Assembly (NCBI GenBank): GCA_023653095.1
Contig: JAMNXP010000001.1
Coordinates: forward strand, 62,001-126,000
From: Bacteroidia bacterium
GTDB lineage: Bacteria; Bacteroidota; Bacteroidia; NS11-12g; UBA955
DNA length: 64,000 nucleotides
Reading direction: 5' to 3'
Position numbers and translations under genes: made by a program. Positions within the stretch are counted from its first letter, which is position 1. Each line of letters opens with the position of its first letter. This document shows positions 14,932-55,400 of the stretch, piece after piece. The notes beneath the pieces are model-generated. The model saw nothing but the letters and a program-made list of their open reading frames with translations. It was not told the origin of the DNA and searched no databases.

Positions 14932-15140
14932 AAATCAAATTCTGCTCGTTCGGACAAATGTACGTATAAAACGAATGATTCAAAAAAATATTTTCTCATC
15001 ATGACATTCCGGTGGGAATTCCCTTTTATGTTCGTCAAAATACGGTCTGTAAATCAAGTCAGGGAAATATTCAGTTTGATTATTCGTTACCTTTACATCG
15101 ATTTAAACTCACTCATTGTAAAACGAAGTATTTCAGATTA

Positions 15141-18100
15141 ATGACTAAAACCTTTAAATTTATACTAATCATTGTTTTAACTGTATTCATGGTTTATGAT
15201 GCGTCGAGTCAAACGAACAATCCATTTGTTTCGGCGTCTGGTAAATGGGTTAAGTTGGAATTTGATAGAACCGGCGTATATAAAATTGATTACAACAAGT
15301 TAAAAGATTGGGGATTTAATCCTTCGAATATCAATCCTCAATTAATTAGATGTTTTTCGGTACAAGGAGATGGCATTCCAATTGTGAACGATTCTACAGA
15401 TTCTTGGTCGCTTATTGAAGCACCGATCAAGATTGTTGGGGGACAAGATGGTGTAATTGACCCACAAGATTACATTTTGGTATATCGCAAAATTTCTCGA
15501 GGTTGGAAAGTCCAAAACGGAAACTTCAAGCACTTTATCAATCCGCTTTCAAATAAATCGTATGCTATTTTTGGATACTCTGATCCAACTGATACCAAAA
15601 CTCAAAATTTGGGTAAACGTTTAATATCCCAAGATAAAACTACAGGGTCGGCTATCCAAACCATAGGTCAAGGACTAAATCTTCAATTCCATGACTCTGA
15701 TCGAGTAAACCCAATGAAAATGAGTTCGAATTGGTTTGGTGAGCGTTTGGGTAATGAATATTTGACCAAACAGTATACTTTCCCCCTTTCTCACAACCCA
15801 GACTCAGCTTGGGTAAACTTAAGATTGGCTCCATCTATTACCAGCGGAACAGGTAGTGTTATCATCAAAATAAATCAATTTAGAGACACCATTAAACTCA
15901 GAGCGGTATACTCTTCAGATGAAAATTACTATACTTTTACACGTAATTACGGAATTAAATCGCCGGGCAATCAGTTAAAAGTGGAAATTGAATTTATTCG
16001 GCCGAACAACCAAAGTTCGCTCTACGTAGATTATATTGAAGTACATTCACCCGAAAACCTCAATCTAAATTCAAGTTCAAAAGAGTTTTATATTTCACAA
16101 TTAATGGGCACGCAGAATTCTGTAAATGTGAATATTGCGTCTAATTTCAAACCAGAAATTTGGAATGTTAGCAATAGTTACAATCCCATAGAAATTATGG
16201 GTGCCTATAATTCTAATTCAACGAATTGCATTTTTCAAGATAAAGAAATAGGACATACGCTTTTTGCATTTGATCCGAGTCAATGTCCAACACCGCAAAA
16301 AATAAGTGATGTAAAAACCAAAGATTACCATCTGATTGAAGCTGGTAAGCCTTTATATCTTTCTGCAGATAAATTCAAGTCAACCATAAAGCAAAGAATT
16401 TCTCAGATTCAAGAATTTAATGGGTTATACAAAGGTCAACTTAGCGATCAAGAGAATGTTTTTGCTAGTTTCCCCAATGCGAAATCTAAAATACCGTTTG
16501 TTCAAGTTGCATTTTTGAATGATGTTTATGAGGTTTTTTCAGGAGGGCAACCTGATTTAATGGCAATTCGTAATTTTTCACGTGAACTAACCTCACCGCT
16601 AACCCTTATTGGAACAACTTCATATGACTTTAAAGATAGAATTGCCAACAATACCAATTACATACCCATTTATCAAAGTGCCAACGAACAGTTGACTTCT
16701 GCTTTTTGCTTAGATGATTTCTTTGGATATCATGAAGTAGGGCAAGGAGATCCTTACGGTACAAAGAATAAATTGTCGCAGCCTATCGGAAGAATTCCCG
16801 TGAGAACCGATGCCGAACTGAACAGTTACCTGAATAAGTTGATTAGATACAATCATCCCAATGCTTTAGGAAGCTGGAGAAATCAACTTTCTTTCGTTGC
16901 CGATGATATTGATGAACCATGGGAGGCTGAGTTTACCAGAGAATCTGAATCTTACGCTCAATACATTACCGGCAACTACTCGTTCTTAAAGGTCAATAGA
17001 CTTTATGCTGACGCGTTTAAACAAGTAACCAATGGCAATAATGAAGCCTATCCAGATCTATCAAAATCCATTTCGGATGCCTTCCAAAAAGGCAGTCTTT
17101 TTATCAATTATCAAGGACATGGCGGTGAGAAGGGTTGGGGACAAGAAGCCTTTTTTGATATTCCAACCATCAACGGACTGAATAATCGATTCAATATGCC
17201 TGTTTTGTTCACGGCAACATGCGAATTCAGCAGATATGATAATCCTGAATTTCAGTCGGCTGGTGAACTTACCCTTTTAAATCCGAACGGCGGAGCTATT
17301 GCTTTGATGACCACAACGAGATCAGTTTGGGTATCGGGTAACTCGTTAATCAATGAAGCATTTTGGACGAAATACGGATTTCCAAAGGAGAATGAGGAGG
17401 TCCCAACTACAGGTGTGTTATATCAACGACTTAAAAACCGACCATTTTTAACTTCTGAAGACAACAAATTTGCATTTTTGGGCGATGTGTTTCAAAAGCC
17501 AGCATTTCCTGAACACCTTATTCAAGTTGATTCAGTCAATCAAATAGCAACTGCCAGTTTTAATGATACGCTAAAAGCCTTTTCAGTGGTTGAAATTAAA
17601 GGCAGTATTAGGAAAAGAGGCTTGCCTACACATTTGAATTTATACAGTACTTTTGATGGACTTTTAGATGTAGAAATTTACGATAAGCCCATCAAAAAAA
17701 GTACCCTAAACAACGATGGTTCTAATGCAAATGTGCCATTCTCAGTGGAGAATAGTGTGATTTTTAAAGGACAAGTGACGGTATCTAAAGGGCAGTTCAT
17801 GTTGAAATTTGCTGTTCCCAAAGACATCTCCTACAGTTTAGGTGAAGGAAGAGCCTTATTCTATGCGAAAAATGAATATACCGATGCTACGGGCTCTTGG
17901 AGTTTTGTCATTGGTGGTTCGGAAATAGTAGCCGAAGTGGATACTGTGGGTCCCACGGTAAAGGCGTTCATGAACGATACGTTTTTTGTATCAGGCGAGA
18001 ATGTTCTCACCGATGCCCAATTTATTGCCCTTGTAAATGACCCGAGTGGTATCAATTCTACAGGAGCTGGCATAGGTAGAGATATGCTTGTAATCCTTGA

Positions 18101-18611
18101 TCCAGGTAGTGAAAATGAAAAATCTTACATAGTAAATGAGTATTTTCAGTATTTACCTAACTCATATAAAACGGGATTGATAAATTTTCCTTTAAGGGGA
18201 CTTTCACCCGGTAAACACACTATATCAGTGAAGGTTTGGGATATTTTTAATAACTCTGGAACCGATAAAGTTGATTTCGAAGTAGTTCCTGGTCGTCAAC
18301 TCATTATTTCGGGAGAACAATGTTCACCAAATCCCGTTAATGATGGGCAAGATATTTCATTGAGTTTTAGACACAACCTTGCAGGGGAAGATTTGAAAGT
18401 CAAAGTCAATATCTATGATTTGTTGGGTCAATTAATTTATAATCAAGAAGATACCGAGTATTTATCTAGCACAGAAGTTAAAATCAATATAAAAAGTTCA
18501 GGTTATTTTGGGGGATGGCAACACAAATCGGGTTGTTATGTGTACCAAATCAGTGTTCAAACATCAGATGGATTGTTAGAAACTGTATCAGGTAAAATCA
18601 TTCTTCAATAA
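15141..18611 (+). CDS. porU: Type IX secretion system sortase PorU
   Basis: FINYQGHGGEKGWGQE (catalytic His) and PVLFTATCEFSRYDNPEFQSAGELTLLNPNGGAIALMTTTRSVWVSGN (catalytic Cys) C25-type blocks; followed by porV. Start set at MTKTFKFILIIVL. Confidence 0.93.
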   Translation: MTKTFKFILIIVLTVFMVYDASSQTNNPFVSASGKWVKLEFDRTGVYKIDYNKLKDWGFNPSNINPQLIRCFSVQGDGIPIVNDSTDSWSLIEAPIKIVGGQDGVIDPQDYILVYRKISRGWKVQNGNFKHFINPLSNKSYAIFGYSDPTDTKTQNLGKRLISQDKTTGSAIQTIGQGLNLQFHDSDRVNPMKMSSNWFGERLGNEYLTKQYTFPLSHNPDSAWVNLRLAPSITSGTGSVIIKINQFRDTIKLRAVYSSDENYYTFTRNYGIKSPGNQLKVEIEFIRPNNQSSLYVDYIEVHSPENLNLNSSSKEFYISQLMGTQNSVNVNIASNFKPEIWNVSNSYNPIEIMGAYNSNSTNCIFQDKEIGHTLFAFDPSQCPTPQKISDVKTKDYHLIEAGKPLYLSADKFKSTIKQRISQIQEFNGLYKGQLSDQENVFASFPNAKSKIPFVQVAFLNDVYEVFSGGQPDLMAIRNFSRELTSPLTLIGTTSYDFKDRIANNTNYIPIYQSANEQLTSAFCLDDFFGYHEVGQGDPYGTKNKLSQPIGRIPVRTDAELNSYLNKLIRYNHPNALGSWRNQLSFVADDIDEPWEAEFTRESESYAQYITGNYSFLKVNRLYADAFKQVTNGNNEAYPDLSKSISDAFQKGSLFINYQGHGGEKGWGQEAFFDIPTINGLNNRFNMPVLFTATCEFSRYDNPEFQSAGELTLLNPNGGAIALMTTTRSVWVSGNSLINEAFWTKYGFPKENEEVPTTGVLYQRLKNRPFLTSEDNKFAFLGDVFQKPAFPEHLIQVDSVNQIATASFNDTLKAFSVVEIKGSIRKRGLPTHLNLYSTFDGLLDVEIYDKPIKKSTLNNDGSNANVPFSVENSVIFKGQVTVSKGQFMLKFAVPKDISYSLGEGRALFYAKNEYTDATGSWSFVIGGSEIVAEVDTVGPTVKAFMNDTFFVSGENVLTDAQFIALVNDPSGINSTGAGIGRDMLVILDPGSENEKSYIVNEYFQYLPNSYKTGLINFPLRGLSPGKHTISVKVWDIFNNSGTDKVDFEVVPGRQLIISGEQCSPNPVNDGQDISLSFRHNLAGEDLKVKVNIYDLLGQLIYNQEDTEYLSSTEVKINIKSSGYFGGWQHKSGCYVYQISVQTSDGLLETVSGKIILQ

Positions 18612-24472: not shown

Positions 24473-25669
24473 TTATTTACGCTGCAATCCCAAACCATCA
24501 TAATAAGGATAAATGAGATAAGGTTTGCGCTTTACCATGAATAACTCAATGCCTGAGCTCCAACTGTCTCTAATCTCTTCAGCCGATTTTCCCAATTCAA
24601 TTTGTTTTTGTAATGACTCTGTGCCGGCTAATTTGGTGAAAAACGAATTGAAAAAGGGAGTTTTTTCCTCTTTGGGATACTCTTGATGCAACAAAATGAG
24701 CCACTCCAGATAAACATGTCGGAATGAAATTAAATATTCACTGGCAAAATCTGTAACCAACATGCCTTTGCATACCTGGCCTAAAAATGGTGGATTGTTT
24801 GCTTTTCCGGGGATGTTTTTAGGCGTAAATGTATATCTACCCGTTTTTAACCAAGGAGCGCCGAAACACTCAAATGGCTTATCCGTTCCCCTTCCCATAC
24901 TGATATTGATTCCTTCAAATAATCCCAAGGTAGGATAAAGAATAATGGATTCAGGAGTGGGCAAGTTGGGTGATGGTGCTATAGGAAGTTGATAGTATCT
25001 GTTATGATCATAGTTGGCACAAGGTATCACAGTGAGTTTTAAGTTGTCTTTTTTGTTAATCCAAGATTCTCCTCTGATCATCAATGCCAATTCGCCTAGA
25101 GTCATTCCATGTACCAACGGAATGGGGTGTAGGCCTACCATGCTTTGATGTTGAATTTCTAAAATGGGACCATCAATGTAATATCCATTGGGATTGGGTC
25201 TGTCTAAAACCATGAAACTCACTTTATTTTCAGCGCAAGCTTCCATGCAGTAGTGCATTGTACTCAAATAGGTATAAAATCTTACACCAACATCTTGTAT
25301 ATCAAATATCAATACCTCTATATCACTGAGTTGATCTGCAGTAGGTTTTTTATTTTTACCATATAAACTGATGATGGGTAAACCAGATTTTAGATCTTTG
25401 CCGTTGGAAATAGATTCGCCGTTGGCAGCATTACCCCTAAATCCATGCTCAGGAGCAAATATTTTATTGATTTTAATTCCCCTTTTCATTAATGTGTCAA
25501 CCAAGTGAATTCCATTGATAACCGCCGTGTGGTTGGTGACAACACCTACTTTTTTTCCCTGTAATAAGGGTATATAATCATTCATTCTTTCGGCTCCAAC
25601 TTGAATGGGCTGTCGTTGTGCGTCAACTCTTAGACTGATTAGTGCTAAACATAGAATAAATGACTTCAT
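24473..25669 (-). CDS. DUF1343 / NamZ-family exo-beta-N-acetylmuramidase-like protein
   Basis: KINKIFAPEHGFRGNAANGESI...EVLIFDIQDVGVRFYTYLSTMHYCMEA...LDRPNPNG. Start set at MKSFILCLAL. Confidence 0.88.
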   Translation of the reverse strand: MKSFILCLALISLRVDAQRQPIQVGAERMNDYIPLLQGKKVGVVTNHTAVINGIHLVDTLMKRGIKINKIFAPEHGFRGNAANGESISNGKDLKSGLPIISLYGKNKKPTADQLSDIEVLIFDIQDVGVRFYTYLSTMHYCMEACAENKVSFMVLDRPNPNGYYIDGPILEIQHQSMVGLHPIPLVHGMTLGELALMIRGESWINKKDNLKLTVIPCANYDHNRYYQLPIAPSPNLPTPESIILYPTLGLFEGINISMGRGTDKPFECFGAPWLKTGRYTFTPKNIPGKANNPPFLGQVCKGMLVTDFASEYLISFRHVYLEWLILLHQEYPKEEKTPFFNSFFTKLAGTESLQKQIELGKSAEEIRDSWSSGIELFMVKRKPYLIYPYYDGLGLQRK

Positions 25670-25712
25670 TAGAAGCGGAAACGAAAAATGAATTGTATTT
25701 TTGGACGTCTTC

Positions 25713-26948
25713 ATGAATTGGAAATGGCTCATAGCGAAAAGATTCCTCACAAAGGAACAACAATCTAAGTCAAGAAGTGTCGTATTATTGGCAGTTTTAT
25801 CGGTTTCTGCAAGTATTACGGTCATGAATATTTCTATGGCAACCTTATTTGGTTTCCAAAATGAAATTGAAAGAAAGGTAAAACGCATTCAAGGTGATTT
25901 TATTGTTGATGCTGGAAACAACATCGAAAACGGTGAACCCAATCCTATAGACAATAAATTGGTGAGTCAATTTTTAGATTCACTCAAAACTCAACCTTGG
26001 AGAAATCAAATTGAACAAATCATACCATCTACAAGTAAAGCCTGCGTATTAAAGTCGAAAGATGAAATTGAAGGTGTTTTGGTAAAAACCATACCAACGA
26101 ATCAATTAGATCAATACCTGAAAGGTTTTACTTTAAGTAAGTCGATTATCACTGATACCATGCCTTGGATAGCCGTTGGTAGCGACTTAGCTAAAAAATT
26201 AAAGTTAAAGTTAAACGATAAATTGACCGTCGTATTTTTTGTAAATGACCAAAACGATACCAGGCCAAGAGCAAGGAAATTATGGGTTAAACGAATTTAT
26301 GAAACGGGAATTGATAAAATTGATCAAGAAATTGCTTTCATCAACCCCAGTATATTAGACCCCTTTGTTGATTCCAATTTCAAGTATACCCAAGTAGAAA
26401 TTTGGCTGCCCCCAAATCAAGAGTCATTTCAAGCTCGTAAAAACATATTGAGCATTTTGCCTGCCGGCGATTTGAGATTAAACACCCTACAAGAATTCAA
26501 TAGAGTTATTTTTGATTGGTTGGCCATTTTGGAAACCAATGTAATCATAATTTTAACCTTAATGTCGTTGGTAGCCATTGCTACCATGAGTACCACACTT
26601 TTGGTCTTGGTCATTGAGAAAACCAGTTTTGTAGGACTCATGCGTTCAATGGGCGCCAGAAATACCGCTATTCGTATGGTTTTTGTTTATGAATCTCTGA
26701 TTATTGCAAGCGGAGGATTGTTGATTGGAAATGTTATTTCTGCCATCATTATAGGACTACAGAACCATTATCATTGGATTAGCCTCGATCAAAGTGTGTA
26801 TTTTATTAAATATGTGTACATGGAGTTGAGCCCTTTACAGTATTTAGGTGTGAATGTAGGGGCTTTAGTAGTGATTTTTCTGAGTTTATTTATCCCTTCG
26901 AGGTACGTTTCCAAAATCAACACCATCAAAGCCATTCAATTCAAATAA
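25713..26948 (+). CDS. FtsX-like/LolC-LolE-type ABC transporter permease
   Basis: MNWKWLIAKRFL...VVLLAVLSVSASITVMNISMATLFGFQNEIERKV; C-terminal VIEKTSFVGLMRSMGARNTAIRMVFVYES. Confidence 0.9.
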   Translation: MNWKWLIAKRFLTKEQQSKSRSVVLLAVLSVSASITVMNISMATLFGFQNEIERKVKRIQGDFIVDAGNNIENGEPNPIDNKLVSQFLDSLKTQPWRNQIEQIIPSTSKACVLKSKDEIEGVLVKTIPTNQLDQYLKGFTLSKSIITDTMPWIAVGSDLAKKLKLKLNDKLTVVFFVNDQNDTRPRARKLWVKRIYETGIDKIDQEIAFINPSILDPFVDSNFKYTQVEIWLPPNQESFQARKNILSILPAGDLRLNTLQEFNRVIFDWLAILETNVIIILTLMSLVAIATMSTTLLVLVIEKTSFVGLMRSMGARNTAIRMVFVYESLIIASGGLLIGNVISAIIIGLQNHYHWISLDQSVYFIKYVYMELSPLQYLGVNVGALVVIFLSLFIPSRYVSKINTIKAIQFK

Positions 26949-27015: not shown

Positions 27016-28992
<1,977 letters not shown>

Positions 28993-29105: not shown

Positions 29106-30566
29106 TTAAAATAAACCTTGATTGATGAGGCCCGTTATTCGTAAATAATTTATCAATGAATCAAAGTACTTTGATTTTTGCTCTAAAGTCTTTATTCGCG
29201 CTGTTAAGTACCTGTTTTCACGGGTATTTAGCAAGAATATAGTACCGTCACCTGAATTGAATTTTTCAAGTTCCAATTCGTACAACTTTTGATATCCTTG
29301 CTCAATGTCTTTTAATTGAAAGAATACAGACCTGTAAATGTTGGTTTGATTTTGCATCGCCTCAATTTTGGTTTGCAATTCATGTGCTTTGAATTTGAAG
29401 CCCATTTGTGAACGAGTTAACTCTATTTTTGACATTTGATAGGTTCCTCTAGCTTCCCTCAAGAATAGGGGGCTAGATACGCCAATTCCAAAACGTTGGT
29501 TGCTCGAGCTCAAGCTAAAGTCCCAATCACCACCTGCCAAAGATTGATACTTCAAGTTGGCGTAGGGTAGAAGGTATTGTTTTTTCAGTTTGACATCCAA
29601 TTCTTTTTTACTCAATTCAAAAGAATACCAATTCAAATCAGGAATTTCAGTAAAGTTTTTATTGAAGCTAAAATCTGTCTTAAATAAACTGTCTAAATAG
29701 TCCAAACCTGTTTGGGTGGGCACCGTTTTAGGGTCAATAATCAACGGACGCAGATAAGCACCATTTTCATTAATTTCATCTACTGCCCATAAGTGCCTAC
29801 TTAATGTAAGTCTGGCTTTATTGGTATTGGCAAACCATAAATCAGCACTGGCTTTGAAAAGTTGATACTGAATGTGATTTTCTAAAGTATCCATTCCATT
29901 ACAACCTCCAGCTTGAAACAAACTGATGAGTGCTTTTTGCCTATTTTCAGCTAAAGTAACTCCCGTTTGATACGCTCTTAATTGCTCATAAGAAATTAAC
30001 CAGTCTATGTAATCTGTCCAAATTTGTTGAGCCAAATTTAGTATTTCAATTTGTCTTTCAAGGATGGATTGTTCTCTTCCGAGTTTCGCTTGGTTAAGTT
30101 CAGTTCGTCTCAAATCGGTCAACAAACCTCTAAGCAATGGAACTTCAACGCCCACATACTGCAAATGCTTAAAGAGTGTTTGGTTTTCTGGGGACAAAAA
30201 ATCGCCTTGTCCACGTTCATTTCCAACGACAATATTCAAAGGCCCTCTAACAGGAACAAATAGTTCGTAATTTTCTCCTAGATAGTAGTTTCTTGACTGA
30301 AAATCTTTACCCCTTCTGTCTCCACTGATTTGTGGGTCAAATGCTCCTCGTCTTGCTCTTAGGTTAGCTCTGCCCAAGTCATCGGCCAATTCAGCCGATA
30401 TCATTAATGGGTGCCCATTCTTTATTTGAGCACTCAAATCTATAAAAGTCAATTCCTGAATTGCAGAATCAGCGGTTGACTGAGCATGGATTAGATTCCA
30501 GCCAAAAAGCATCAATCCAATGGCAAAATTTCGAATTACGTAAGAAATTCTACTTTGATTTTGCAT
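29106..30566 (-). CDS. TolC-family outer membrane efflux protein
   Basis: Signal peptide MQNQSRISYVIRNFAIGLMLFGWNLIHAQS; FDPQISGDRRGKDF...LRRTELNQAKLGREQSILERQIEILNLAQQIWTDYIDW coiled-coil/OEP features. Confidence 0.85.
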   Translation of the reverse strand: MQNQSRISYVIRNFAIGLMLFGWNLIHAQSTADSAIQELTFIDLSAQIKNGHPLMISAELADDLGRANLRARRGAFDPQISGDRRGKDFQSRNYYLGENYELFVPVRGPLNIVVGNERGQGDFLSPENQTLFKHLQYVGVEVPLLRGLLTDLRRTELNQAKLGREQSILERQIEILNLAQQIWTDYIDWLISYEQLRAYQTGVTLAENRQKALISLFQAGGCNGMDTLENHIQYQLFKASADLWFANTNKARLTLSRHLWAVDEINENGAYLRPLIIDPKTVPTQTGLDYLDSLFKTDFSFNKNFTEIPDLNWYSFELSKKELDVKLKKQYLLPYANLKYQSLAGGDWDFSLSSSNQRFGIGVSSPLFLREARGTYQMSKIELTRSQMGFKFKAHELQTKIEAMQNQTNIYRSVFFQLKDIEQGYQKLYELELEKFNSGDGTIFLLNTRENRYLTARIKTLEQKSKYFDSLINYLRITGLINQGLF

Positions 30567-31860
30567 TTTCTGAAGTATCTTTTCTGTTGTTATGATAATA
30601 ATCAGGTGGGAATCCGTTGAGTTGTCGCCAAAGTTCATACCAAACAGGTACGCGTTTTAAGAGCATGAACGACATAGAACCCACCCCAATTTTTAATTCT
30701 TTAGGCCAAGGTTTTTTGCCGTCATCGGCTTTTACCAATACACGGTAATACCCTTTTTCATTCAGTACGTTATCTACGGCGTAAATCTTGCCGGGAAAAG
30801 TTCCGTAGGTCATTTCAGGCCAACCTGAAAATACCATAGTAGGCCAACCATCAAAAATCACCTGTACGGGTGATCCAACTTCAATCAATGGCATATCCAC
30901 GGGTTTAATGAAAAGTTCTACCGCGAGATTCACATTAGATGGAACAATGGTGCATATAGACTGACCTTCTTTAACGGTTATTCCAACGCCATTGGATAAG
31001 GTTTGAGAAATCATTCCATCTTGGGGTGCTCGTATCACATAAAATCCATTTCTGATTAAATAGTTAGAATACTGATTGCGTAGTTTAGCAATTTCACTCT
31101 CTGTTTCCATTTGAGATGAAATGGCCGTGTAACGGTCACTTTCGGTTTTCGCTAGTTTCTCACCGTATTCAACTTTGATGTTTTGCAACTCTATTCGAGC
31201 ATTTTCGATGGCGTTTCTGGCAATGTCTAATTTTGCTTTGTGTATCTGTAGTTTCGCGTTAGCCTCTTGATATTTTACACGTCTATTTTCAATGTCTAAG
31301 GGACTTTTAATCTGTTTTTGCCCTAAAATAGAGTCTCGAACCAACTGCTGAAGAGCTATTTTGGCATTGACCTCAGCCGCCTTCAATTCAGCCATTTCTG
31401 ATTGATACTTGAACTGTTCTTGTTCAAATTTCACTTTTGCTTTTTGAATGGAAAAGTCTCGATTCGCTTCTAATTGTGTAATTTGATTGTTGATTGCATC
31501 AATTTTTGAAGAGTAGCTTAGTACAGAATTTTCTTTTGCTTGAATTTGTGCAGAGGTTTGTCCAATTAAGCCTGGATCCAAATACTCACTTTTTACCTCC
31601 CCAATAACACAAATGGTATCACCTTCTTTTACTAAATCACCGTCTTTGACGTACCATTTGATGATTTGACCAGCAATTACTGGTTGCACAGATTGGGGTC
31701 TTTCATTGGGTCTCAATGTAGTAACTACACCATCCGACTGTATGTTCTGTGTCCAAGGGAGGAACAAAAAGGCAATAAAACAAGTAATTATGATTAAAAT
31801 AATTCTTTGAAGGCGTTTGCCGGCCCATGGGCTATCTGAGTAAAAGTCTTGATTAACCAT
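30550..31860 (-). CDS. HlyD-family periplasmic adaptor (membrane fusion) protein
   Basis: N-terminal TM; VQPVIAGQIIKWYVKDGDLVKEGDTICVI lipoyl half; long coiled coil; VIRAPQDGMISQTL...VKEGQSICTIVPSN. Confidence 0.92.
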   Translation of the reverse strand: MVNQDFYSDSPWAGKRLQRIILIIITCFIAFLFLPWTQNIQSDGVVTTLRPNERPQSVQPVIAGQIIKWYVKDGDLVKEGDTICVIGEVKSEYLDPGLIGQTSAQIQAKENSVLSYSSKIDAINNQITQLEANRDFSIQKAKVKFEQEQFKYQSEMAELKAAEVNAKIALQQLVRDSILGQKQIKSPLDIENRRVKYQEANAKLQIHKAKLDIARNAIENARIELQNIKVEYGEKLAKTESDRYTAISSQMETESEIAKLRNQYSNYLIRNGFYVIRAPQDGMISQTLSNGVGITVKEGQSICTIVPSNVNLAVELFIKPVDMPLIEVGSPVQVIFDGWPTMVFSGWPEMTYGTFPGKIYAVDNVLNEKGYYRVLVKADDGKKPWPKELKIGVGSMSFMLLKRVPVWYELWRQLNGFPPDYYHNNRKDTSENAKSK

Positions 31861-32815
31861 CTATTTCCATTATTTGGTTCAACTTTTCAATAGCTATTCC
31901 GCAATCGTATAAATTTTCTACAGTGAGAATCAACTTTTCAATAGCATCTAAGAGCGTAATAATGAGAATTTCCGCTGCTAAAAATTGCCCTAGGCTAATG
32001 CTTTGATTGACCAATAAATAACTTCCTAAGATCAACATCATAGCCGTAAATAATACTTTGGTCAATATTCCAAGCCAAGCTTGTCTGTATAGAATTCCAA
32101 AATGTTGAGTTCTACTTTCTGCGTAGTTATTCAAGTGCCCATTGATTTCATCTATATTTAAATCAGTATCTTCCTCGGCAAACAACCTTCTTAATGATTC
32201 TGCCGTTAAAAACTTAAAATTTGATTCTCTTCGGGCAGTTTCAAAACCTCTTTTCCAGGTTAATCGCAACACGATAAAGACAATAATCAAAACTACAATT
32301 CCAAAAAGAATAAAGATGGGGTGATATAATGACAATAGTAACAATCCAAAGATAGCTTGAAGTAATTTCCCTGTAAAATCAATCAATAATTTAGATAAAC
32401 TCTTTTGTAGTGTGATTACATCAATGAAATAAGAGGTTTTCATCTTTACATACCATCCATATTTAATACCTGTTTCACGAAGTTCCGAAATCTTGTCTCG
32501 GAAAATTTCTCCAAACTTTAGAAATAACTTTCTTTCAATACTATCAATGATACTTAATTGGGCAAGTTTAGTCACACCAGCCAAAAGTACACACAACGTG
32601 ATGACCAATGACAATAGAAACCAACTAGTAGACAATCTCCCTCCCATAACAAATCCTATGATGGTCTGTATTCCTAGGGGAATGGCCAAACTAATTAATC
32701 CTGAAAACACGGCATATACATAAAGGAATTTAACGTTCCTTTTTTCATAGCTCAATAGAGCTAAAATGTTTTTAATGGGAGTGTCTTGATTAAAAGTGCT
32801 TTTAGTAATACTCAT
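31853..32815 (-). CDS. ABC exporter transmembrane-domain-only protein (no nucleotide-binding domain)
   Basis: Type-1 exporter TMD features (LKFGEIFRDKISELRETG...IIDFTGKLLQ...; YDCGIAIEKLNQIMEIDG*) but ORF stops where an NBD would begin; no Walker A, LSGGQ or Walker B. Confidence 0.85.
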   Translation of the reverse strand: MSITKSTFNQDTPIKNILALLSYEKRNVKFLYVYAVFSGLISLAIPLGIQTIIGFVMGGRLSTSWFLLSLVITLCVLLAGVTKLAQLSIIDSIERKLFLKFGEIFRDKISELRETGIKYGWYVKMKTSYFIDVITLQKSLSKLLIDFTGKLLQAIFGLLLLSLYHPIFILFGIVVLIIVFIVLRLTWKRGFETARRESNFKFLTAESLRRLFAEEDTDLNIDEINGHLNNYAESRTQHFGILYRQAWLGILTKVLFTAMMLILGSYLLVNQSISLGQFLAAEILIITLLDAIEKLILTVENLYDCGIAIEKLNQIMEIDG

Positions 32816-32859: not shown

Positions 32860-34287
32860 TTATTTACCGCGTCCTTGTATCATGATCAGAAATGTATTGA
32901 ACAGTATTTTAAGATCTAAAGCGAGCGACATATTTTCTAAATAGAAAATATCGAACTTCATTCTATCTACCATCTGTGTAACATCTTCTGCATAGCCGTA
33001 TTTGATTTGTCCCCAACTTGTAATTCCAGGCTTAACGCGATGAAGACGTTTGTAAATGGGTGATATATTAACGATTTGATCTATGAAAAACTGTCTTTCT
33101 GGCCTTGGACCTACCAAGCTCATTTGTCCCAAAAGAACATTAATGAATTGAGGAAGTTCATCCAATCGAGATTTTCTGAGAAATACTCCTACTCTCGTTC
33201 TTCGATCATCTAGGTCATTACTTAACTGCGGACCATGCTTCTCTGCATCGACGAACATGCTTCTAAATTTGATGATTTTAAAGGGAATACCTTTGTGACC
33301 GATTCTATCTTGTCTAAAAAACATTGGGCCTTTTGAATTTACCTTTATGGCGATCCCAATAAAAAGAAATAATGGCGAAATAATGACCAAGGCTAAAGCT
33401 GAAATTGCAATATCAATGAACCGTTTTAGGAATTTTTGCCAATAAGGCATCACTTCGAAGTCAACTTCTGCAAGAGATGCACCCAAAATATTGTTCATTT
33501 TTACCATTCCCAATACCATGGCATATTCATTGGGAAGCATTTTTATGTGAACAGATTGGTTCTCTATTTTATCCATGATTCGAGGAACCATCTCTGATTC
33601 ATCAGACTCATTGGCAATAATGATGTCTTCAATTTGGTATTTCTGAATGAGATAAATCAACTCTTCCCAATTTCCTAAAATAGACCTTCTTGAGTGTTTG
33701 ATAAATTCTGTGGGATATGAATGAGACTTAATGCCAACAAAGCCAATGACATTGAAGCCTTCGTATACTTTTGCATGTTCAATTTCGCCCCATAGGTTCA
33801 AAGCCGTGTTACCCGTTCCCACAATGAGCGTCTTATAACCCCATTCTCTTTTTCTAAACTTATTGATGGTGTAGGTTGCATTAAACAATCTAAAAATCAA
33901 AGTGGAGAAGAAATGAAAACCAAATAATACACCCAAACTGGTGTAGTAGTCAGTGTAATTGGATACGCTATCATCAAGGATCAATACAAAAAACAAGAAT
34001 AATACCCCAACAATACTAGTAGCTATTGTATTTTCTAATTCCTTTAGCCTAGATCTTCTTAAAATGAACTGGTAATACCCCGTCATTGCATATAAAAACA
34101 ACCAAAACAGGGGTATAAGAATCAGTCCTAAATATAATTTTGGATCTTGGTTTATTGGAATGGTGTAACCATGTTTTGAGGCCTCAATAAAGTTCTTACG
34201 AAAAAGAAATAGAGCCAGCCAAGACAAACTAGCAGCTACCCAATCAAAGAAAAGATGAGATAATAAACGTATGTTATCCTTTTTCAC
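32860..34287 (-). CDS. Exopolysaccharide polyprenyl glycosylphosphotransferase (WcaJ-like)
   Basis: N-terminal TMs; KRFIDIAISALALVIISPLFLFIGIAIKVNSKGPMFFRQDRIGHKGIPFKIIKFRSMFVDAE...RKSRLDELPQFINVLLGQMSLVGPRPE. Confidence 0.95.
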   Translation of the reverse strand: MKKDNIRLLSHLFFDWVAASLSWLALFLFRKNFIEASKHGYTIPINQDPKLYLGLILIPLFWLFLYAMTGYYQFILRRSRLKELENTIATSIVGVLFLFFVLILDDSVSNYTDYYTSLGVLFGFHFFSTLIFRLFNATYTINKFRKREWGYKTLIVGTGNTALNLWGEIEHAKVYEGFNVIGFVGIKSHSYPTEFIKHSRRSILGNWEELIYLIQKYQIEDIIIANESDESEMVPRIMDKIENQSVHIKMLPNEYAMVLGMVKMNNILGASLAEVDFEVMPYWQKFLKRFIDIAISALALVIISPLFLFIGIAIKVNSKGPMFFRQDRIGHKGIPFKIIKFRSMFVDAEKHGPQLSNDLDDRRTRVGVFLRKSRLDELPQFINVLLGQMSLVGPRPERQFFIDQIVNISPIYKRLHRVKPGITSWGQIKYGYAEDVTQMVDRMKFDIFYLENMSLALDLKILFNTFLIMIQGRGK

Positions 34288-36953: not shown

Positions 36954-38231
36954 TTAGTGCATTGCTGCTTCAATTTCTTCTACTTCAATCGGGAAATTAG
37001 CCATTAAATCAATCACATTAGCCGTATTTACAATAACATCATTTTCAATTCTCACCCCAATTCCTTCCTCTGGAATGTAAATGCCAGGTTCAATGGTAAG
37101 CACTGATCCTTCAGGAATGGGTTCGTATCGATGCATTACATCGTGAACATCCAGTCCCAAATGATGGGAAGTTCCGTGCATGAAATATTTCATGAAGGCC
37201 CTTGGATTATCTTTGATTTCTTGGGATGTGAACAGCCCTAATTCCACTAACTTTTCGTTTGTGAACTTGCAAACTTCTGCGTGATATTCTGGCAATGGAA
37301 CTCCAGGCTTAATGATGGAATGAGCGAATTTATGTACATCTAATACCGCATTATAAACCTGTTTTTGTCTTGCGGTGAAAGTGCCATTGGCAGGCACACA
37401 CCGGGTTAAATCGCCATTGTAATTGCCGTATTCAGCGCCAAAATCCAATAACAACAAATCACCTTCTTTCACCTGTTTATTGTTCTCAATATAATGTAAC
37501 ACGCATGCTGAACTTCCTGAAGCGATGATGGGATCAAAAGCAAATCCGCGACTTCTATTTCTCACAAATTCATGCACCAATTCAGCTTCAATTTCGTATT
37601 CCCAAACACCTGGTTTGATGAATTTCAGAACCCTCATCAATCCTTTACGAGTGATTTCTACGGCTTCTTTCAGCATTTCAATTTCTTCAGGTTCTTTTTG
37701 CATTCGCAATCTAGCCATGATAGGCGCACTTCGGAAGAAATGATGTGCAGGATATTTGGATTTTAGTTGATGCGTTAGTGTCACATTTGAATATGCCACG
37801 TCTGATAGAAATCTATCATTTTCATTCAAATTGACATAAATATTTTCGGCCATCAAAATAACCGAATGAATGGTTTTCCAAAACTCATGAAACCAAAAAA
37901 CGGAACTAATTCCAGACTTCTCAAAAACTTGATCGGGATTTAAGCGAGCTCCATCCCAAACGGCAATTTGTTCGTTGGTTTCCTTGACAAATATGGCCTC
38001 TTTAAACATCGGATTCGGACAATCAGGAAACAAAACCAAGATAGTATCCTCTTGATCAACTCCAGTCAAATAGTATAAATCTGATTGCTGCCTAAAACTG
38101 AAAAAAGCATCTCCGTTTCGAGGCATTTCTGCATTGGAATGAAAAATTGCAACAGAACCTGGCTTCATATTCGAAGACAACTTCTGCCTATTTTTGATGA
38201 ACAAGTCTTTCGAAGGAGATTGGTATTTCAT
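36954..38231 (-). CDS. Aminopeptidase P family (Xaa-Pro) metallopeptidase
   Basis: QQSDLYYLTGVDQEDTILVL...LLLDFGAEYGNYNGDLTRCVP...HGTSHHLGLDVHD...TIEPGIYIPEEGIGVRIENDV. Start set at MKYQSPSKDLF. Confidence 0.95.
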   Translation of the reverse strand: MKYQSPSKDLFIKNRQKLSSNMKPGSVAIFHSNAEMPRNGDAFFSFRQQSDLYYLTGVDQEDTILVLFPDCPNPMFKEAIFVKETNEQIAVWDGARLNPDQVFEKSGISSVFWFHEFWKTIHSVILMAENIYVNLNENDRFLSDVAYSNVTLTHQLKSKYPAHHFFRSAPIMARLRMQKEPEEIEMLKEAVEITRKGLMRVLKFIKPGVWEYEIEAELVHEFVRNRSRGFAFDPIIASGSSACVLHYIENNKQVKEGDLLLLDFGAEYGNYNGDLTRCVPANGTFTARQKQVYNAVLDVHKFAHSIIKPGVPLPEYHAEVCKFTNEKLVELGLFTSQEIKDNPRAFMKYFMHGTSHHLGLDVHDVMHRYEPIPEGSVLTIEPGIYIPEEGIGVRIENDVIVNTANVIDLMANFPIEVEEIEAAMH

Positions 38232-38373
38232 TATATTGTCAATTTGTAGGGCAAATTTATCATTAAGTTCCAACGAATCTGAATATGCTTTGGAAAAAAT
38301 GATGAAAAAAATGTACTTTTGGGGCAACGCGAAAATTACAGTTCGTGTCAAAGAAGCAATCATCAAAATCAAT

Positions 38374-41300
38374 ATGAGAAGATTTTTACCCTTTTTATTC
38401 GCCATCCTATTTTTCATGGGGCCAAAAACATCAAATGCATCACACATGATGGGTGCTGACATGAGTTACAGATGTTTGGGCAACGGCAAGTACAAAATTA
38501 CCTTTAAAATTTACCGTGACTGTCGTGGTATTTCGTTCAGTGGACCAACTTTTGGTGCTTTCGCTGGACTTAACGGCGGTAATGGTTGCGGAAACGTTTC
38601 TTTAGGTGGAGTTACCAGAACAGGAATTAGAGACGTAACAACCCGTTGTTCTTCAGCTTCTAGTCCTTGTAGTCCTTCAAACACATACCAAACAGGTAAA
38701 GGCGTAGAGGAACATACCTTTGAAGTTACTATTGACTTTGGTTCATCGCCGTTAAATCAGTTTGTAAACAACAGCTCATCATGTTGCGAGGTGACTTTTT
38801 ACACTGGTCAGTGTTGTAGAAATAGTGCGATTACCACGGGTGCATCTAATCAAGATTTCTATACCACTTGTATGATCAACATTTGTAACATCAAGAAAAC
38901 CACAAATAAATGTAATAGTAGTCCTCAGCTTTCTAATGAACCAGTAGGTTTCTTATGCTGTAATACACCTTGGTACTACAATAACGGTGCGATAGATACT
39001 GTTGATTTTGACTCTATTTCTTATAACCTAGTAAAAGGATTACGTGGTTTACCAAATAACGCAGTACCTTATTCTTCTCCTTTTACAGATCAATACCCCA
39101 TTACTCCATTTTGCATTCCACCAACAACCATTAAATGCGATCCCAAGCCAAACTTAGTTCCCCCACGTGGATTTTACTTTGATACAACCAATGGTGATAT
39201 CATTGTAACTCCTACTAAATGTGATGAAGTTCCAATCTTGGTTATTCAGCAAACGGAGTGGCGACAAGATAGTGCTACTGGGAAATGGATAGTCGTAGGT
39301 CGAACACGACGAGATATGCAAATGTGGGTGCTTGATGAATGTGGATATAACAAACCACCTATCATCAATGGTCCTTTCTCGTGGAATATCTGTGAAGGTG
39401 ATAAGATTTGTAAAAAAATTAAAATTACCGACGAAACCTTTACACCAAACCAAAAGACCCCTGATACAGTTCTAGCAAAATGGAACGGTGGTATTCCAGG
39501 TGCTACATTTACGGTTGTAGATCCTACAAAACGTGAAAAAGAATATGAATTCTGTTGGCAAACTAAGCGAGGTGATGCATCTGAAGTATCTTATTCATTC
39601 ACCGTAAACGCAACAGACCAGCACTGTACACCTCCTATGAACTCTATCCGAAGCTTCAAGGTTAAGGTGAATCCTCGTGCAGAAGCTGTTAGAAAATACG
39701 ATACATTAAAATGTGGTAGGTTTGCCTTTACCTCAGTCTTACCGGCGAATTTCAAGAGTAAAGCAACGTACTTATGGAGTGTAAGAGATTCAAATGGAAT
39801 GGAGTTGAAGTACAGTACAAAGATGTCGGATTCTATGAATTATTATTGGGGTGGAAAATACATCTTTGTACATACCATCAATAATTCGTTCAACTGTCCA
39901 ACAGTTTATGCAGACACTGTTGAATTCCCAGCACCTCCTAAAGCGGTTTTAGCTACTGCAGATACTTTTGCATGTTTGAATACCAACATGACATTGAAAC
40001 CCAATATCTTACATGCTAAATCCCCCTACAAGTATTATTGGACACGTTGGAAGATGACTCCTGATAGCACCAAAACCACTTACATCATGTCTAATGAACT
40101 TCATGTCAGTGGTGATACATTGGAAACCATGAAGGTGAATAAGGTAGTTTCTGACTCAATCATTCGTGTTAGAATCACAGACGGAGATGGTTGTAAATTC
40201 TGGGATACTGCTGTTATTTGGTTAAAACCATTGCCTAAAGTGGACCTAGGAAAAGACCAAAGGATCTGTACTTATGAAATTGCTACATTCGATGCTCAAA
40301 ACAACGATACTTTAGATTATTTCTGGAGTTCTGGTGATACCACTCAAGTTGTATACAAAAATGTTGCAGGACAGTATACAGTGAAGTTGGTTGATCGCAC
40401 CTTCAAATGTGAAAGAACTGATACAATTAATCTGTTTGTGAATGATACAGTAGTTGCAATTGCAGGTGCTGATCAGGTAATTTGTCATCAGAAATCAGCA
40501 ACATTGCAAGGTCAACACAAACCTTATAATCAAACAGCTACCTACCAATGGAAGAATCTAACTCAAAATACGACTCTGGGTGCAAATTTTGAGTATGTAG
40601 TCTCACCAAAGAATACCAATCCCAATGGTGGATCTGCCCAGGATTTCAATTATCAATTCTATGCAAAAGTGACTCAATCTGGTCATACTTGTGAAGATTA
40701 TGATACTATGACCGTTAAGGTGAACACTCTACCTATTGTGACATGGACAAAGAAGCCATTGCCTCCGCAGTGTTATGATTACGGTGATATTGAATTAAAT
40801 AGTTTCTTGAACGTAGGAAAAACAAATGGTGTAAGAATTTGGTCTGGAAATTTACAAGCCAAGGACCAATATGTTGATAGTATAACAGCTACTCGTCATC
40901 TGTTTAAAACCTCGTTGTTGGATAACTCAAAACTACAAAATGGTCAAAACTACCAAGCGAAAGTTTACGGCTGGTTCAAAGACACCAACGGTTGTGTAAA
41001 CTACGATTCTGCTATCCAACGAATTAATGGTAACCCAATACTTCAATTAACTCCTAAGATTTACTGCCAAGACCTTGGAGAGGCGTCAATGGATAACAAC
41101 GTAATTCGTCCTAAAACCAAAGCAGGTATCAAATGGACTTGGGAAGTGAAAACTGTTCCATCAGGGGTAAATGCAGCGAATGTATTGGTGAATAATAACC
41201 CATTCGGAACGCCTGATTTCCGATTTAAATTTGGAGACCCAACCGAAGATTTCTACATGGGTAGATATCATTATAGTCTGTGTATTGAAGACGTAATTAC

Positions 41301-43011
41301 AGGTTGTAGAAGTTGTGATACTGTATCAAACGTGATTATTCCAGAGCCTACTGTTAAAGTTCTAACTCCTGACCCTGTTTGTGTAAACTGGGATACCATA
41401 AACTTAAACGACTATGTGACTGTAAATGGTAATCCTGGAGCACCTGGCGATGGTGGGGTTTATCAAATTACGGAAGTAGATTATAGCAACAGCGACCCAC
41501 GCGTAGGAAAAGCATTGCCTAAAGGTCATTTGTTCCCCCCAAGTTTTGGACCAGGAACATATAAAATCCTTTACAGCAATGATGGAACAGGTTGTATGAA
41601 AAGAGATTCATTCTACATGTATGTAAATGATACCCCTGATGCAGTACTACTAAATCCAGTAACGTTGTGTAGCAATAGTTCTCCATTAGAATTAAACACA
41701 CGTATTGATATGAGTAAAACCAAACCAACATCGGGTATTGCGACTTGGGAAGGTGTGAATTTGAATGGTTCTAAGTTTAATCCAGTCTCTACATATACTG
41801 CAGCAATTGAAGGACCATATGCCCTTAAACTCGCTTACAGAGATAATAACGGTTGTGCAGATACGGAAATCTATTATGTTGCAGTGAGAACTCAACCTGA
41901 GATAGAAATCACCACAGTGAATCCATATCCTCAATGTGAGAACTCACCATTCCCTGTTCAGAGTGTGAGCAAATGGAGCAATAATCAAGTTAACTGGCAG
42001 GTTGTTAACGGTTCTGATGGAAACGTAGATAATGCTTCCTCAGAAAACATTGTTTACACTCATGGAGCAAATGACGCAGCCAACAAGCAAGCGTTCTTAA
42101 AAGTTACCACAGTACCTTTTGCTAATGATGTTTGTCCTGCTGTATCAGATTCTATTTTGATTGTGATTCATCCTTACCCAGTGTTAGAACCACTATCAAA
42201 GTTTGACGGTTGTGTTCCATTATCTACCGATTGGTTTGTAACAGAGTCGAAAGGAATTCCTCAGAATCAATTGGGTTATGTTTGGACATTTGGAAACGGA
42301 GACACATCGTATGTTTCTAACCCATCTGGTGTGTTATATCCAACTCAAGGTCGTTACAATGTAAAAGTAACTGTTACCAATAATACACCAGACGGTGGAC
42401 AATGTGCTACAACCATAGATGGTCCAGACCATGTTGAAGCTTACCCAATTCCGGACGCATACTTTGAAACAGATCCTACATATACTACTACTGTGGCATT
42501 ACCTAAGTTCACTATGTTGAATAAGAGTACCATTCAGGCTGTGCCATTTAACCCGAGCATGAGCTATGTATGGAACTTCGGAACAGGTAAATCAACCGAT
42601 ACAGCAATGAGTGAAGGACCAAGATTTGCTTATTCTCGTGACACTGGTATTTACAGAATCTTATTGACCGTTACCTCTAACCATGGTTGTGTTGATACTT
42701 TCTCAAGAGCTGTACATATTGGACCAGACATTATAGTGTTCATACCAGACGTATTTACCCCTAACAGTGAAGGTCCTAATAAGAATGAAACATTTAACCC
42801 TGTTGCTACAAACTTCAAAACCTTTAATATGTTGATTTTCAATCGTTGGGGAGAGAAGTTATACGAAACCAATAACCCACTCAATGGGTGGGATGGTAGA
42901 GATGCTCAAGGTGTAGATTGTCAACAAGGTGTTTATGTCTACCACGTGGTAGTAACTTCTTTTGAAGACGAAGAATATGTCTTTGATGGTACCATTACCT
43001 TATTGCGATAA
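38374..43011 (+). CDS. Very large T9SS-secreted protein with PKD-like regions and CHU_C/gliding-motility-associated C-terminal domain
   Basis: Signal peptide MRRFLPFLFAILFFMGPKTSNA, SHMMGADMSYRCLGNGKYKITFKIYRDCRG; C-term IVFIPDVFTPNSEGPNKNETFNPVATNFKTFNMLIFNRWGEKLYETNNPLNGWDGRDAQGVDCQQGVYVYHVV. Confidence 0.92.
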   Translation: MRRFLPFLFAILFFMGPKTSNASHMMGADMSYRCLGNGKYKITFKIYRDCRGISFSGPTFGAFAGLNGGNGCGNVSLGGVTRTGIRDVTTRCSSASSPCSPSNTYQTGKGVEEHTFEVTIDFGSSPLNQFVNNSSSCCEVTFYTGQCCRNSAITTGASNQDFYTTCMINICNIKKTTNKCNSSPQLSNEPVGFLCCNTPWYYNNGAIDTVDFDSISYNLVKGLRGLPNNAVPYSSPFTDQYPITPFCIPPTTIKCDPKPNLVPPRGFYFDTTNGDIIVTPTKCDEVPILVIQQTEWRQDSATGKWIVVGRTRRDMQMWVLDECGYNKPPIINGPFSWNICEGDKICKKIKITDETFTPNQKTPDTVLAKWNGGIPGATFTVVDPTKREKEYEFCWQTKRGDASEVSYSFTVNATDQHCTPPMNSIRSFKVKVNPRAEAVRKYDTLKCGRFAFTSVLPANFKSKATYLWSVRDSNGMELKYSTKMSDSMNYYWGGKYIFVHTINNSFNCPTVYADTVEFPAPPKAVLATADTFACLNTNMTLKPNILHAKSPYKYYWTRWKMTPDSTKTTYIMSNELHVSGDTLETMKVNKVVSDSIIRVRITDGDGCKFWDTAVIWLKPLPKVDLGKDQRICTYEIATFDAQNNDTLDYFWSSGDTTQVVYKNVAGQYTVKLVDRTFKCERTDTINLFVNDTVVAIAGADQVICHQKSATLQGQHKPYNQTATYQWKNLTQNTTLGANFEYVVSPKNTNPNGGSAQDFNYQFYAKVTQSGHTCEDYDTMTVKVNTLPIVTWTKKPLPPQCYDYGDIELNSFLNVGKTNGVRIWSGNLQAKDQYVDSITATRHLFKTSLLDNSKLQNGQNYQAKVYGWFKDTNGCVNYDSAIQRINGNPILQLTPKIYCQDLGEASMDNNVIRPKTKAGIKWTWEVKTVPSGVNAANVLVNNNPFGTPDFRFKFGDPTEDFYMGRYHYSLCIEDVITGCRSCDTVSNVIIPEPTVKVLTPDPVCVNWDTINLNDYVTVNGNPGAPGDGGVYQITEVDYSNSDPRVGKALPKGHLFPPSFGPGTYKILYSNDGTGCMKRDSFYMYVNDTPDAVLLNPVTLCSNSSPLELNTRIDMSKTKPTSGIATWEGVNLNGSKFNPVSTYTAAIEGPYALKLAYRDNNGCADTEIYYVAVRTQPEIEITTVNPYPQCENSPFPVQSVSKWSNNQVNWQVVNGSDGNVDNASSENIVYTHGANDAANKQAFLKVTTVPFANDVCPAVSDSILIVIHPYPVLEPLSKFDGCVPLSTDWFVTESKGIPQNQLGYVWTFGNGDTSYVSNPSGVLYPTQGRYNVKVTVTNNTPDGGQCATTIDGPDHVEAYPIPDAYFETDPTYTTTVALPKFTMLNKSTIQAVPFNPSMSYVWNFGTGKSTDTAMSEGPRFAYSRDTGIYRILLTVTSNHGCVDTFSRAVHIGPDIIVFIPDVFTPNSEGPNKNETFNPVATNFKTFNMLIFNRWGEKLYETNNPLNGWDGRDAQGVDCQQGVYVYHVVVTSFEDEEYVFDGTITLLR

Positions 43012-52443: not shown

Positions 52444-55400
52444 ATGAGCCTAAAAGGTTGGTATATATGGGTGTTTGCATGTTTGATTTCGGTCAATGCG
52501 TTTGCCGTTGATGGCACTAAACCCCAATTTATTCCAAATCAGAATCAATATTCTGATCAAGTCATCGCAAAATTGCCTCTGAATTTCGGACAATTATGGT
52601 TTACCAAGTCAGGTGTGTGGATTCAATTGCTCCAAGAAGAAGAACTTGATAGACTACACGATAAAACAATTGATCAATCAACACTGAATTCTGATGTTGT
52701 TCATTTAGAGTTTTTAGGTGCTAATCTTTCCAATTATCATTTTGAAGGAGATTCTTCCCTTGAAATTTATAATTTCATTAAAGGAAATAATCCCCAAAAA
52801 TGGGTCTCAAATGTCAAAAAGCGAGAAGTAATTCTATTCAAGAATGTGTATGATGGGGTAGACCTTGAGTTTAAATGTACCAATTCCGGCATCAAATATA
52901 ATTGGTTGGTACATAACTCTAAGAACTTTGATTGGTTGAAGAATATAAGGTATCGATTTGAAGGTGCTCAAGTGCAATTGGTGCACAATAAGAAAATAAA
53001 GATCAATTCCAATCACCATGAATTTTCTGAAAGTATACCATTGGTGTATTTTGTAAATCAAGAAGGTCAAAAAACTGTAGAACAACTTCACTACAATATT
53101 GATAACAACATTATTTCGTATCAATGGGGAGGGTCTGACGCTCAACTTGAAAACATTAACAATGAATTGAATTCAATTTCAAATTCCGACTTGGTCATTG
53201 ATCCCATTCTTGTTTTTAGCACTTATTCAGGTTCATTTGCTGATAATTTTGGTTGTACGGGCACCTATGATGATTTGGGTAATGGTTATTCAGGTGGAAC
53301 CGTTTTTGACCTTGGATTACCAACCACTGCCGGAGCAATTCAGTTAAATTTTGGTGGAGGAGAAGATGAGAATTTAGGATATGGAGGTAGTAGAGATGGA
53401 GCAATATTAAAGTTCAATCAAAGCGGTAGTCAACTTCTCTATTGTACTTATCTAGGAGGCTCCGGTAATGAGCAACCTCATAGTATGGTAGTAGATTCCT
53501 TGAACAACTTGTTTATCATGGGTTCTACCACAAGTTTGGATTTTCCCATGATTACAAGTCCCAAACCCTACAATCATCTGCCCAATTTTGGATATGAGTT
53601 TTTTGTGGTAAAATTGAATTCTATAGGCACTCAATTAAGGGGTTCTACTTTTGTAGGTGGTACTAAAATGGATGCTGTTGGTGCTGATCGATCCACACAA
53701 GATGTCAATGATTTTCCACTGCTGTATAATTATGCAGATGAATTTAGAGGAGAAATAATTACCGACAACAAAAACGTTTACATTGGCGGGTTTACCTACT
53801 CCAATGACTTTCCAAACACCATTGAATCTTTACCAATTGTTGGTCCCAAATTGAGCGGTGTAGTATTCTCTTTAGATGGTAACTTATCAAGTTTACGTTG
53901 GTCAAGGCTAATATATTCTTCAGACAACTCGTATACTGCTATCTATGGAATTGCATTGGGTGATTCTGGTGATATTTACGCTACCGGTGGTACCAATGGA
54001 AAGCAATTTCCGAGTAAATATGGATTAAAATGGATCAATAATTTCATTGGTGATGTAGATGGTATTATTCTAAGATTAACCACCAATAACGGTAGTTTAC
54101 TTTCGGGTAGATACTATGGCACCAACTCCTATGATCAATCGTATTTTGTTCAAACAGATAATTCGGGTAGACCCTATATTTTTGGTCATACCGAAGCCCC
54201 ATTGCCTGTAATTAATGCTGTTTACAACGATCCCAACAAAGGTCAGTTTATTACACGTTTCAATAGATACCTCAATCAAATTGAACTTCAAACTACGTTT
54301 GGTTCAAATACCAATTTACCGAATATAAGTCCGTCGGCATTTTTAGTTGATCGTTGTGAAAGGATATTTATTTCCGGTTGGGGAGGTGCGACAAATAGCT
54401 CACTTTACGATGTGTTTACAGGAAATCCGAAGACTCACCGAAATAAAGGGACAACCAGAAATCTGCCCATAACCGGCGACGCCTATCAAAGGACTACCGA
54501 TGGGAGCGACTTTTATGTTGCTGTTTTTTCTAAGAATATGTATAATCTGGCTTATGCTACTTTTTTTGGAGGTATTACTTCTGCTTCAAAAGAAGCGGAA
54601 GAGCACGTTGACGGAGGAACCAGTAGATTCGACAAAAAAGGCATCATTTATCAGTCAGTTTGTGCCGGCTGCCGACGTAATGGTATTTATCCTACCACAC
54701 CTAATGCCTATTCTAGAATAAATAACAGTTCTAACTGCAACAATGCGTTGTTTAAAATTGACTTTGAGAATTTGAATAAGATTCCTAAAATGAATGACAC
54801 TTTGGTTGAGGTAATTGCCACTCAACCCATTAATTTCACCATGTGGGCCTCCGATCCTGATGTGTTTGATACACTGAGAATAAAAGCTAAATGGTTAAAT
54901 AAAGCGGGTATGTCAGGGTCTGATACAGCAATCATCAATACTTTTGAGGGTATTAATAAGGCTCGATTTGATTTGACTTGGAATACTCAGTGCAGCAGCT
55001 ATTCTAAAGATACCGCTATTTTACAACTCATGATTTTTGATTGTGGTTGCCCAGAAGCAGATACGATATTTAGATTGGTTAAGATAGTGGTTAAAGAACC
55101 ACCCGTGGTAAATCCGCCGGATGCTATTTGTGTTAGTTACGATCGTGTAAATAAGGAAATGAAGGTGGCATGGCCTGCAACTTCGGTGCCTAATGGATTT
55201 TTTAAATATTTCTTACTCGAAAAAACAGATCCACAAGGCAATGTTTCAATTATAGATACCATTAGAAGCGCGAATGCAGGATCATTTTTGGATGGAAATG
55301 TAGTGACACCCAATCTTCAAAATTATTGTTACAAGATTGTGGGTGTTAATATTTGCAACGTTAAAACCAATCCGTTGAATAGTTGGTGTACAGTTAGAGA

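Follow-up and report, generated by a model that had tools for sequence, protein, structure and literature searches.

Export powered by ATP is what defines an ABC exporter, and the locus described here raises the question of how, if at all, such an exporter would be driven when its operon encodes no ATPase. Within the window (the whole 64-kb stretch of DNA that was analysed), the membrane domain (TMD) of an ABC exporter is encoded together with a HlyD-type adaptor and a TolC-family channel, the composition of a tripartite exporter as judged by profiles, with the adaptor matching HlyD_3 (E = 6e-11) and type_I_hlyD (E = 1e-27) and the channel matching Pfam OEP (E = 1e-20; Table 1). The translated TMD protein ends in NQIMEIDG, followed by the stop codon, where the ATPase domain (NBD) would normally start, and its stop codon and the ATG of the HlyD gene share 8 nt (ATGGTTAA), as the original prediction had stated. 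The overlap it reported between the HlyD and TolC genes also exists, with a probable size of about 17 nt, not 89, since an internal ATG at 30566 in the TolC gene precedes MQNQSRISYVIRNFAIGLMLFGWNLIHAQS, which resembles a signal peptide and makes 30566 the probable start. The prediction that no NBD gene lies nearby holds for the whole 64-kb window, where we found no ABC ATPase open reading frame in any frame of either strand, hidden frames included; the sole Walker-A-like string lies inside an RNB-domain (RNase R-like) gene at 57241-59367.

Table 1. Features of the locus, positions as in the window
Feature	Position	Strand	Remarks
Type IV ABC exporter membrane domain without NBD (TMD only)	31853..32815	-	320 aa; from ORF list, profile, tree and Foldseek
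HlyD-family periplasmic adaptor	30550..31860	-	436 aa; shortened cytosolic N-terminus; 8-nt overlap with TMD gene
TolC/OEP-family outer-membrane channel	29106..30566	-	likely start 30566; longest ORF from 30638
Polyprenyl sugar transferase	32860..34287	-	upstream, conserved neighbour; system membership not shown
gyrB	27016..28971	-	downstream, conserved neighbour; outside the system
Coupling-helix-1 tip, residues 100-128	codons 32432..32518	-	degenerate in TMD-only lineage
Coupling-helix-2 tip, residues 200-232	codons 32120..32218	-	degenerate and shortened in TMD-only lineage
TM6, residues ~272-316	codons 31868..32002	-	invariant E282, E293, K294, D304

Elsewhere in the window, the listed 5' ends of a NamZ-type muramidase gene (24473-25888, reverse strand) and an FtsX-like permease gene (25701-26948, forward strand) overlap by about 190 nt on opposite strands, probably through over-extended start codons. 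Large PKD or beta-propeller-repeat proteins with CHU_C type IX secretion signals are encoded on the forward strand at 38194-43011 and 52444-56259, and a C25 peptidase-domain protein, inferred to be PorU-like, at 15012-18611; together, the CHU_C proteins and the peptidase-domain protein suggest a T9SS-bearing member of the Bacteroidota.

With respect to the identity of the 320-aa protein, TIGR03796 aligns residues 13-318 to profile positions 141-452 of 710, that is, to the whole TMD and nothing beyond it, which bears out the predicted end at the TMD/NBD boundary. Weak matches are to NHLM_micro_ABC1 and type_I_sec_PrtD, and the score against Pfam ABC_membrane is below the cut-off of that family. 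Pfam SbmA_BacA gave no match at E up to 1, and nothing matched when the TMD by itself was searched against PDB sequences. An AlphaFold model, used solely to back up the fold and the number of helices in view of its low confidence (pLDDT 57), contains six helices only, and the best Foldseek matches of this model are all ABC exporters (TAP, ComA, TM287/288, McjD and PrtD). The phylogenetic tree places the TMD among full-length exporter relatives. From profile, predicted fold and tree we identify the protein as a full type IV ABC exporter membrane domain with six transmembrane helices; without an NBD and without intact coupling helices, it is not a complete ABC transporter.

The gene is a maintained one. 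The window's own genome (75% complete) has one copy of the operon, a TMD copy of equal length and 97% identity occurs in a second genome (99% complete), and with 23 further copies the TMD-only form is found in 25 of 70 genomes of the same family, distributed over four genera (g1, g4, g5 and g10); G330 was left out of this count, its frame being cut by a contig end despite its TMD-only look. The search of relatives that had been proposed thus recovers the arrangement of TMD, HlyD and TolC in 25 genomes, with the order sugar transferase, TMD, HlyD, TolC and gyrB kept wherever contigs allow. A sequencing or assembly error is rejected, as the same form recurs in these genomes, and a full-length frame hidden by an error at 31853 is specifically ruled out by the equal-length copy and the 23 others. 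For close pairs with measurable dS, dN/dS is 0.017-0.095 for the TMD, below or near the TolC value, and similar, at 0.009-0.078, for HlyD; these low values also lead us to reject pseudogene status for the TMD. That the operon has evolved into this form and is not in decay, as originally proposed, is well supported by the 25 genomes, the strong purifying selection and the kept synteny. Two natural knock-outs occur: the operon is present as a pseudogene in G008, and in G017 it is deleted, so that a remnant of some 47 residues is what separates the sugar transferase gene from gyrB. None of the viral contigs searched contained relatives, and an open-access literature search returned no description of this exporter family.

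The relatives of the TMD-only form show how the ATPase decayed. In genera g2, g7 and g8, the syntenic gene is full length and has a GxPGTGRT-like Walker A from which the lysine is gone, and in other genera, in the sister family and class-wide the full-length protein has a Walker A. The family is carried by 126 of 247 class genomes, a tally that, like that for the phylum, describes a sample; many full-length loci have a TetR-type gene upstream (PF00440 confirmed in the two tested). Among 46 aligned family NBDs, LSGG[QE], the Walker B hhhDE and the His switch are absent throughout (0/46 each) and Walker A is kept in 34, the corresponding counts for canonical exporters of the same genomes being 15/15, 15/15, 14/15 and 15/15. 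Identity within the family is 29% for the NBD versus 48% for the TMD, the NBD being the better conserved domain in 0 of 954 pairs; in the same comparison, canonical control exporters have 67% and 68%. In the outgroup, whose members belong to other classes of the same phylum (L203-L208 and L216), Walker A and the DE of Walker B are kept, as is the His in most cases, alongside a non-canonical signature motif. Because these members retain near-intact motifs, the family ancestor was probably an active ATPase. The family extends into the Alphaproteobacteria (Novosphingobium pNL2). The Aureibacter (L174:3971-5623) and Novosphingobium pNL2 (L175:3899-5617) members are full length and adjoined by HlyD and TolC, with NBDs that fall below ABC_tran at E 0.01 and have lost Walker A too; a related frame in Sphingopyxis (L177) appears broken.

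In the maximum-likelihood tree, the window clade of TMD-only proteins is nested in a grade without Walker A that itself lies within the Walker A forms, and at least three events of complete NBD loss are required. AU tests rejected every pairwise joining of the three NBD-less lineages (P = 3e-91, 0.010 and 0.0017). The second lineage is also TMD-only (L074:8991-10004, L075:9099-10103, L076:9040-10041 and L198:7542-8561), each member having its own HlyD and TolC; in three of the four, the HlyD and TMD genes overlap. The third is a direct TMD-HlyD fusion (L211:1532-3787, L212:1780-4035 and L215:456-2714) in which Pfam ABC_membrane is followed by HlyD_3 with no space for an NBD; a TolC gene lies downstream in L212 and probably in L211 and L215, and a divergent TetR-like gene upstream in L212 and L215. 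As read from these sequences, the order of loss is catalytic motifs first, Walker A next (sister genera) and then the whole NBD.

What could drive the remaining membrane domain? Several TMD-core sites (D/E91, K138, K142, D/E146, H165, E197, K201, H238, K/R253, E282, E293, K294 and D304) are acidic or basic in 81-100% of the family and rarely so in canonical exporters of the same genomes, and by their positions in the low-confidence model (pLDDT 57) K142, D146, K253, E282, E293 and K294 lie within transmembrane helices. We rejected the view that these buried charges prove proton coupling, since they also occur in outgroup members whose ATPase motifs are near-intact; judged by their distribution, they predate NBD loss, date back to the origin of the family and need not imply ion coupling. 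The explanation we favour, and consider fairly likely, is that of a tripartite exporter running without ATP after stepwise NBD loss, most likely as an ion-coupled antiporter. An ordinary TMD-NBD fusion was the ancestor; in Bacteroidia the NBD lost catalysis first, in the window's family Walker A followed, and finally the NBD was deleted, the coupling helices that dock it shrinking alongside, as did HlyD at its cytosolic N-terminus. The remaining TMD, a presumed homodimer whose dimer state and transport activity are predicted from sequence, would accept its substrate out of the cytosol or the inner membrane and pass it on to HlyD and then TolC. It would need no ATP and would most likely act in secondary antiport coupled to protons or other ions, with K138, K142 and D146 (TM3), K253 (TM5) and E282, E293, K294 and D304 (TM6) as the proposed coupling residues. 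That the drive is probably an ion gradient follows from analogy with SbmA/BacA, which have dispensed with both the NBD and the coupling helices and exploit the proton gradient through a glutamate ladder (PMC13316013), and with LmrA, whose membrane domain without NBD (LmrA-MD) conducts ions and whose proton-coupled transport requires TM6 Glu314 (PMC6155054). The truncation in LmrA-MD was made in the laboratory, whereas that of the window TMD is natural and old. MsbA, too, is an ABC exporter with ion coupling. Counting against this explanation, the operon is dispensable, given its pseudogene state in G008 and its deletion in G017.

Among the alternatives, the one that survives best, improbable as we judge it, is a passive or gated conduit that does no active pumping and works by facilitated diffusion or is loaded by another enzyme. 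A mere gate would make the NBD expendable and TolC-HlyD would still supply the outward route, but the invariant acidic and basic network in TM3, TM5 and TM6 appears to exceed what a simple pore needs.

The original prediction had left open whether an ATPase is supplied in trans or the TMD acts without ATP hydrolysis. An NBD encoded elsewhere that docks in trans would make this an ordinary split ABC exporter, and split YddA TMD and NBD genes have been reported (PMC13316013); TMD-only genomes also have 26-33 ABC_tran matches each. The surfaces on which an NBD would dock have nevertheless collapsed in the window clade, where both tips have become shorter and retain hardly any conservation (17% and 25% identity versus 50% overall). 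The resulting tip/core identity ratio of 0.36, at which the conserved coupling helices of a complete ABC exporter are no longer found, compares with 0.34 in the TMD-HlyD fusion and, in forms with an NBD, with 0.79 without Walker A, 0.88 with Walker A and 0.95 in the outgroup. In both the window lineage and the fusion, the membrane core and the buried charges are unchanged where the tips collapsed. Parallel to NBD loss, the median number of residues ahead of the LPWxQ motif in the cytosolic N-terminus of HlyD goes from 49 to 43 to 34, distances that rest on mechanical start-codon calls. The second TMD-only clade, with a ratio of 0.92, has retained its coupling tips, on which an NBD or another partner may still dock, and this counts against the main explanation. 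With respect to a partner elsewhere in the genome, each standalone NBD that three TMD-only genomes have in common finds its reciprocal-best counterpart in a genome whose exporter still has the NBD; for almost all of them, such a counterpart also occurs in an operon-less genome. The comparison of these three genomes with NBD-bearing and operon-less ones thus revealed no orphan NBD specific to the TMD-only state, and the proposed orphan partner is rejected, as no candidate tracks that state. Since the ATPase sites of relatives are dead (the motifs having vanished before the domain itself), the docking tips are gone, at least three independent losses of the NBD occurred, one of them joining the TMD straight to HlyD, and no TMD-only-specific NBD was found, the evidence favours the option without an ATPase. 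We regard docking in trans as less probable than a conduit.

Least probable of all is that the membrane domain has ceased to transport and serves some other envelope system, one using the HlyD-TolC conduit, as a subunit for structure, assembly or sensing, a role also compatible with repeated NBD loss, HlyD fusion and the differing presence of the operon among related genomes, but one against which stand core transmembrane conservation and charges that match the NBD-bearing forms and the lack of any other conserved partner gene adjoining the operon across families.

The ion-coupled exporter that we favour has partial counterparts among known systems. SbmA/BacA (SLiPT) peptide transporters derive from full-length ABC proteins and, like the window TMD, have a type IV-like TMD without NBD, lost coupling helices and conserved acidic membrane residues (PMC13316013). 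They are importers with extra TM0 helices, whereas the window model shows six helices only and its protein belongs to neither their sequence family nor their TM0-bearing architecture; unlike them, it adjoins HlyD and TolC and comes from a separate HlyD/TolC-linked ABC family. With the type 1 secretion exporters (HlyB, PrtD, NHLM ABC1 and PCAT/ComA) the system shares the fold and the gene order TMD-HlyD-TolC, but it is without any NBD and its nearest NBD-bearing relatives are without all catalytic motifs. EmrAB-TolC, an ion-driven inner-membrane pump with a HlyD-type adaptor and TolC, resembles the proposed mode of action, and the window HlyD matches EmrA TIGR00998 (E = 2e-15); the inner-membrane part is an MFS protein there and an ABC-fold TMD here. 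The complex most probably works like an EmrAB-TolC-type secondary tripartite exporter on an ABC fold.

Somewhat more tentatively, at a little short of even chances in our estimation, the whole Bacteroidota HlyD/TolC-linked family may have switched from ATP to an ion gradient, through pseudo-ATPases and then at least three NBD deletions that gave NBD-free tripartite exporters and a TMD-HlyD fusion pump. Judged by their motifs, many Bacteroidota proteins annotated as "ABC transporter ATP-binding protein" are probably without ATP hydrolysis. The family provides a natural series in living genomes, from a near-intact ATPase through a dead ATPase and the loss of Walker A to no domain at all, with the membrane part and its partners under strong selection throughout. 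It would thereby offer a second, independent route from primary to secondary transport that is better sampled than that of SbmA/BacA, with matched intermediates and replicate losses.
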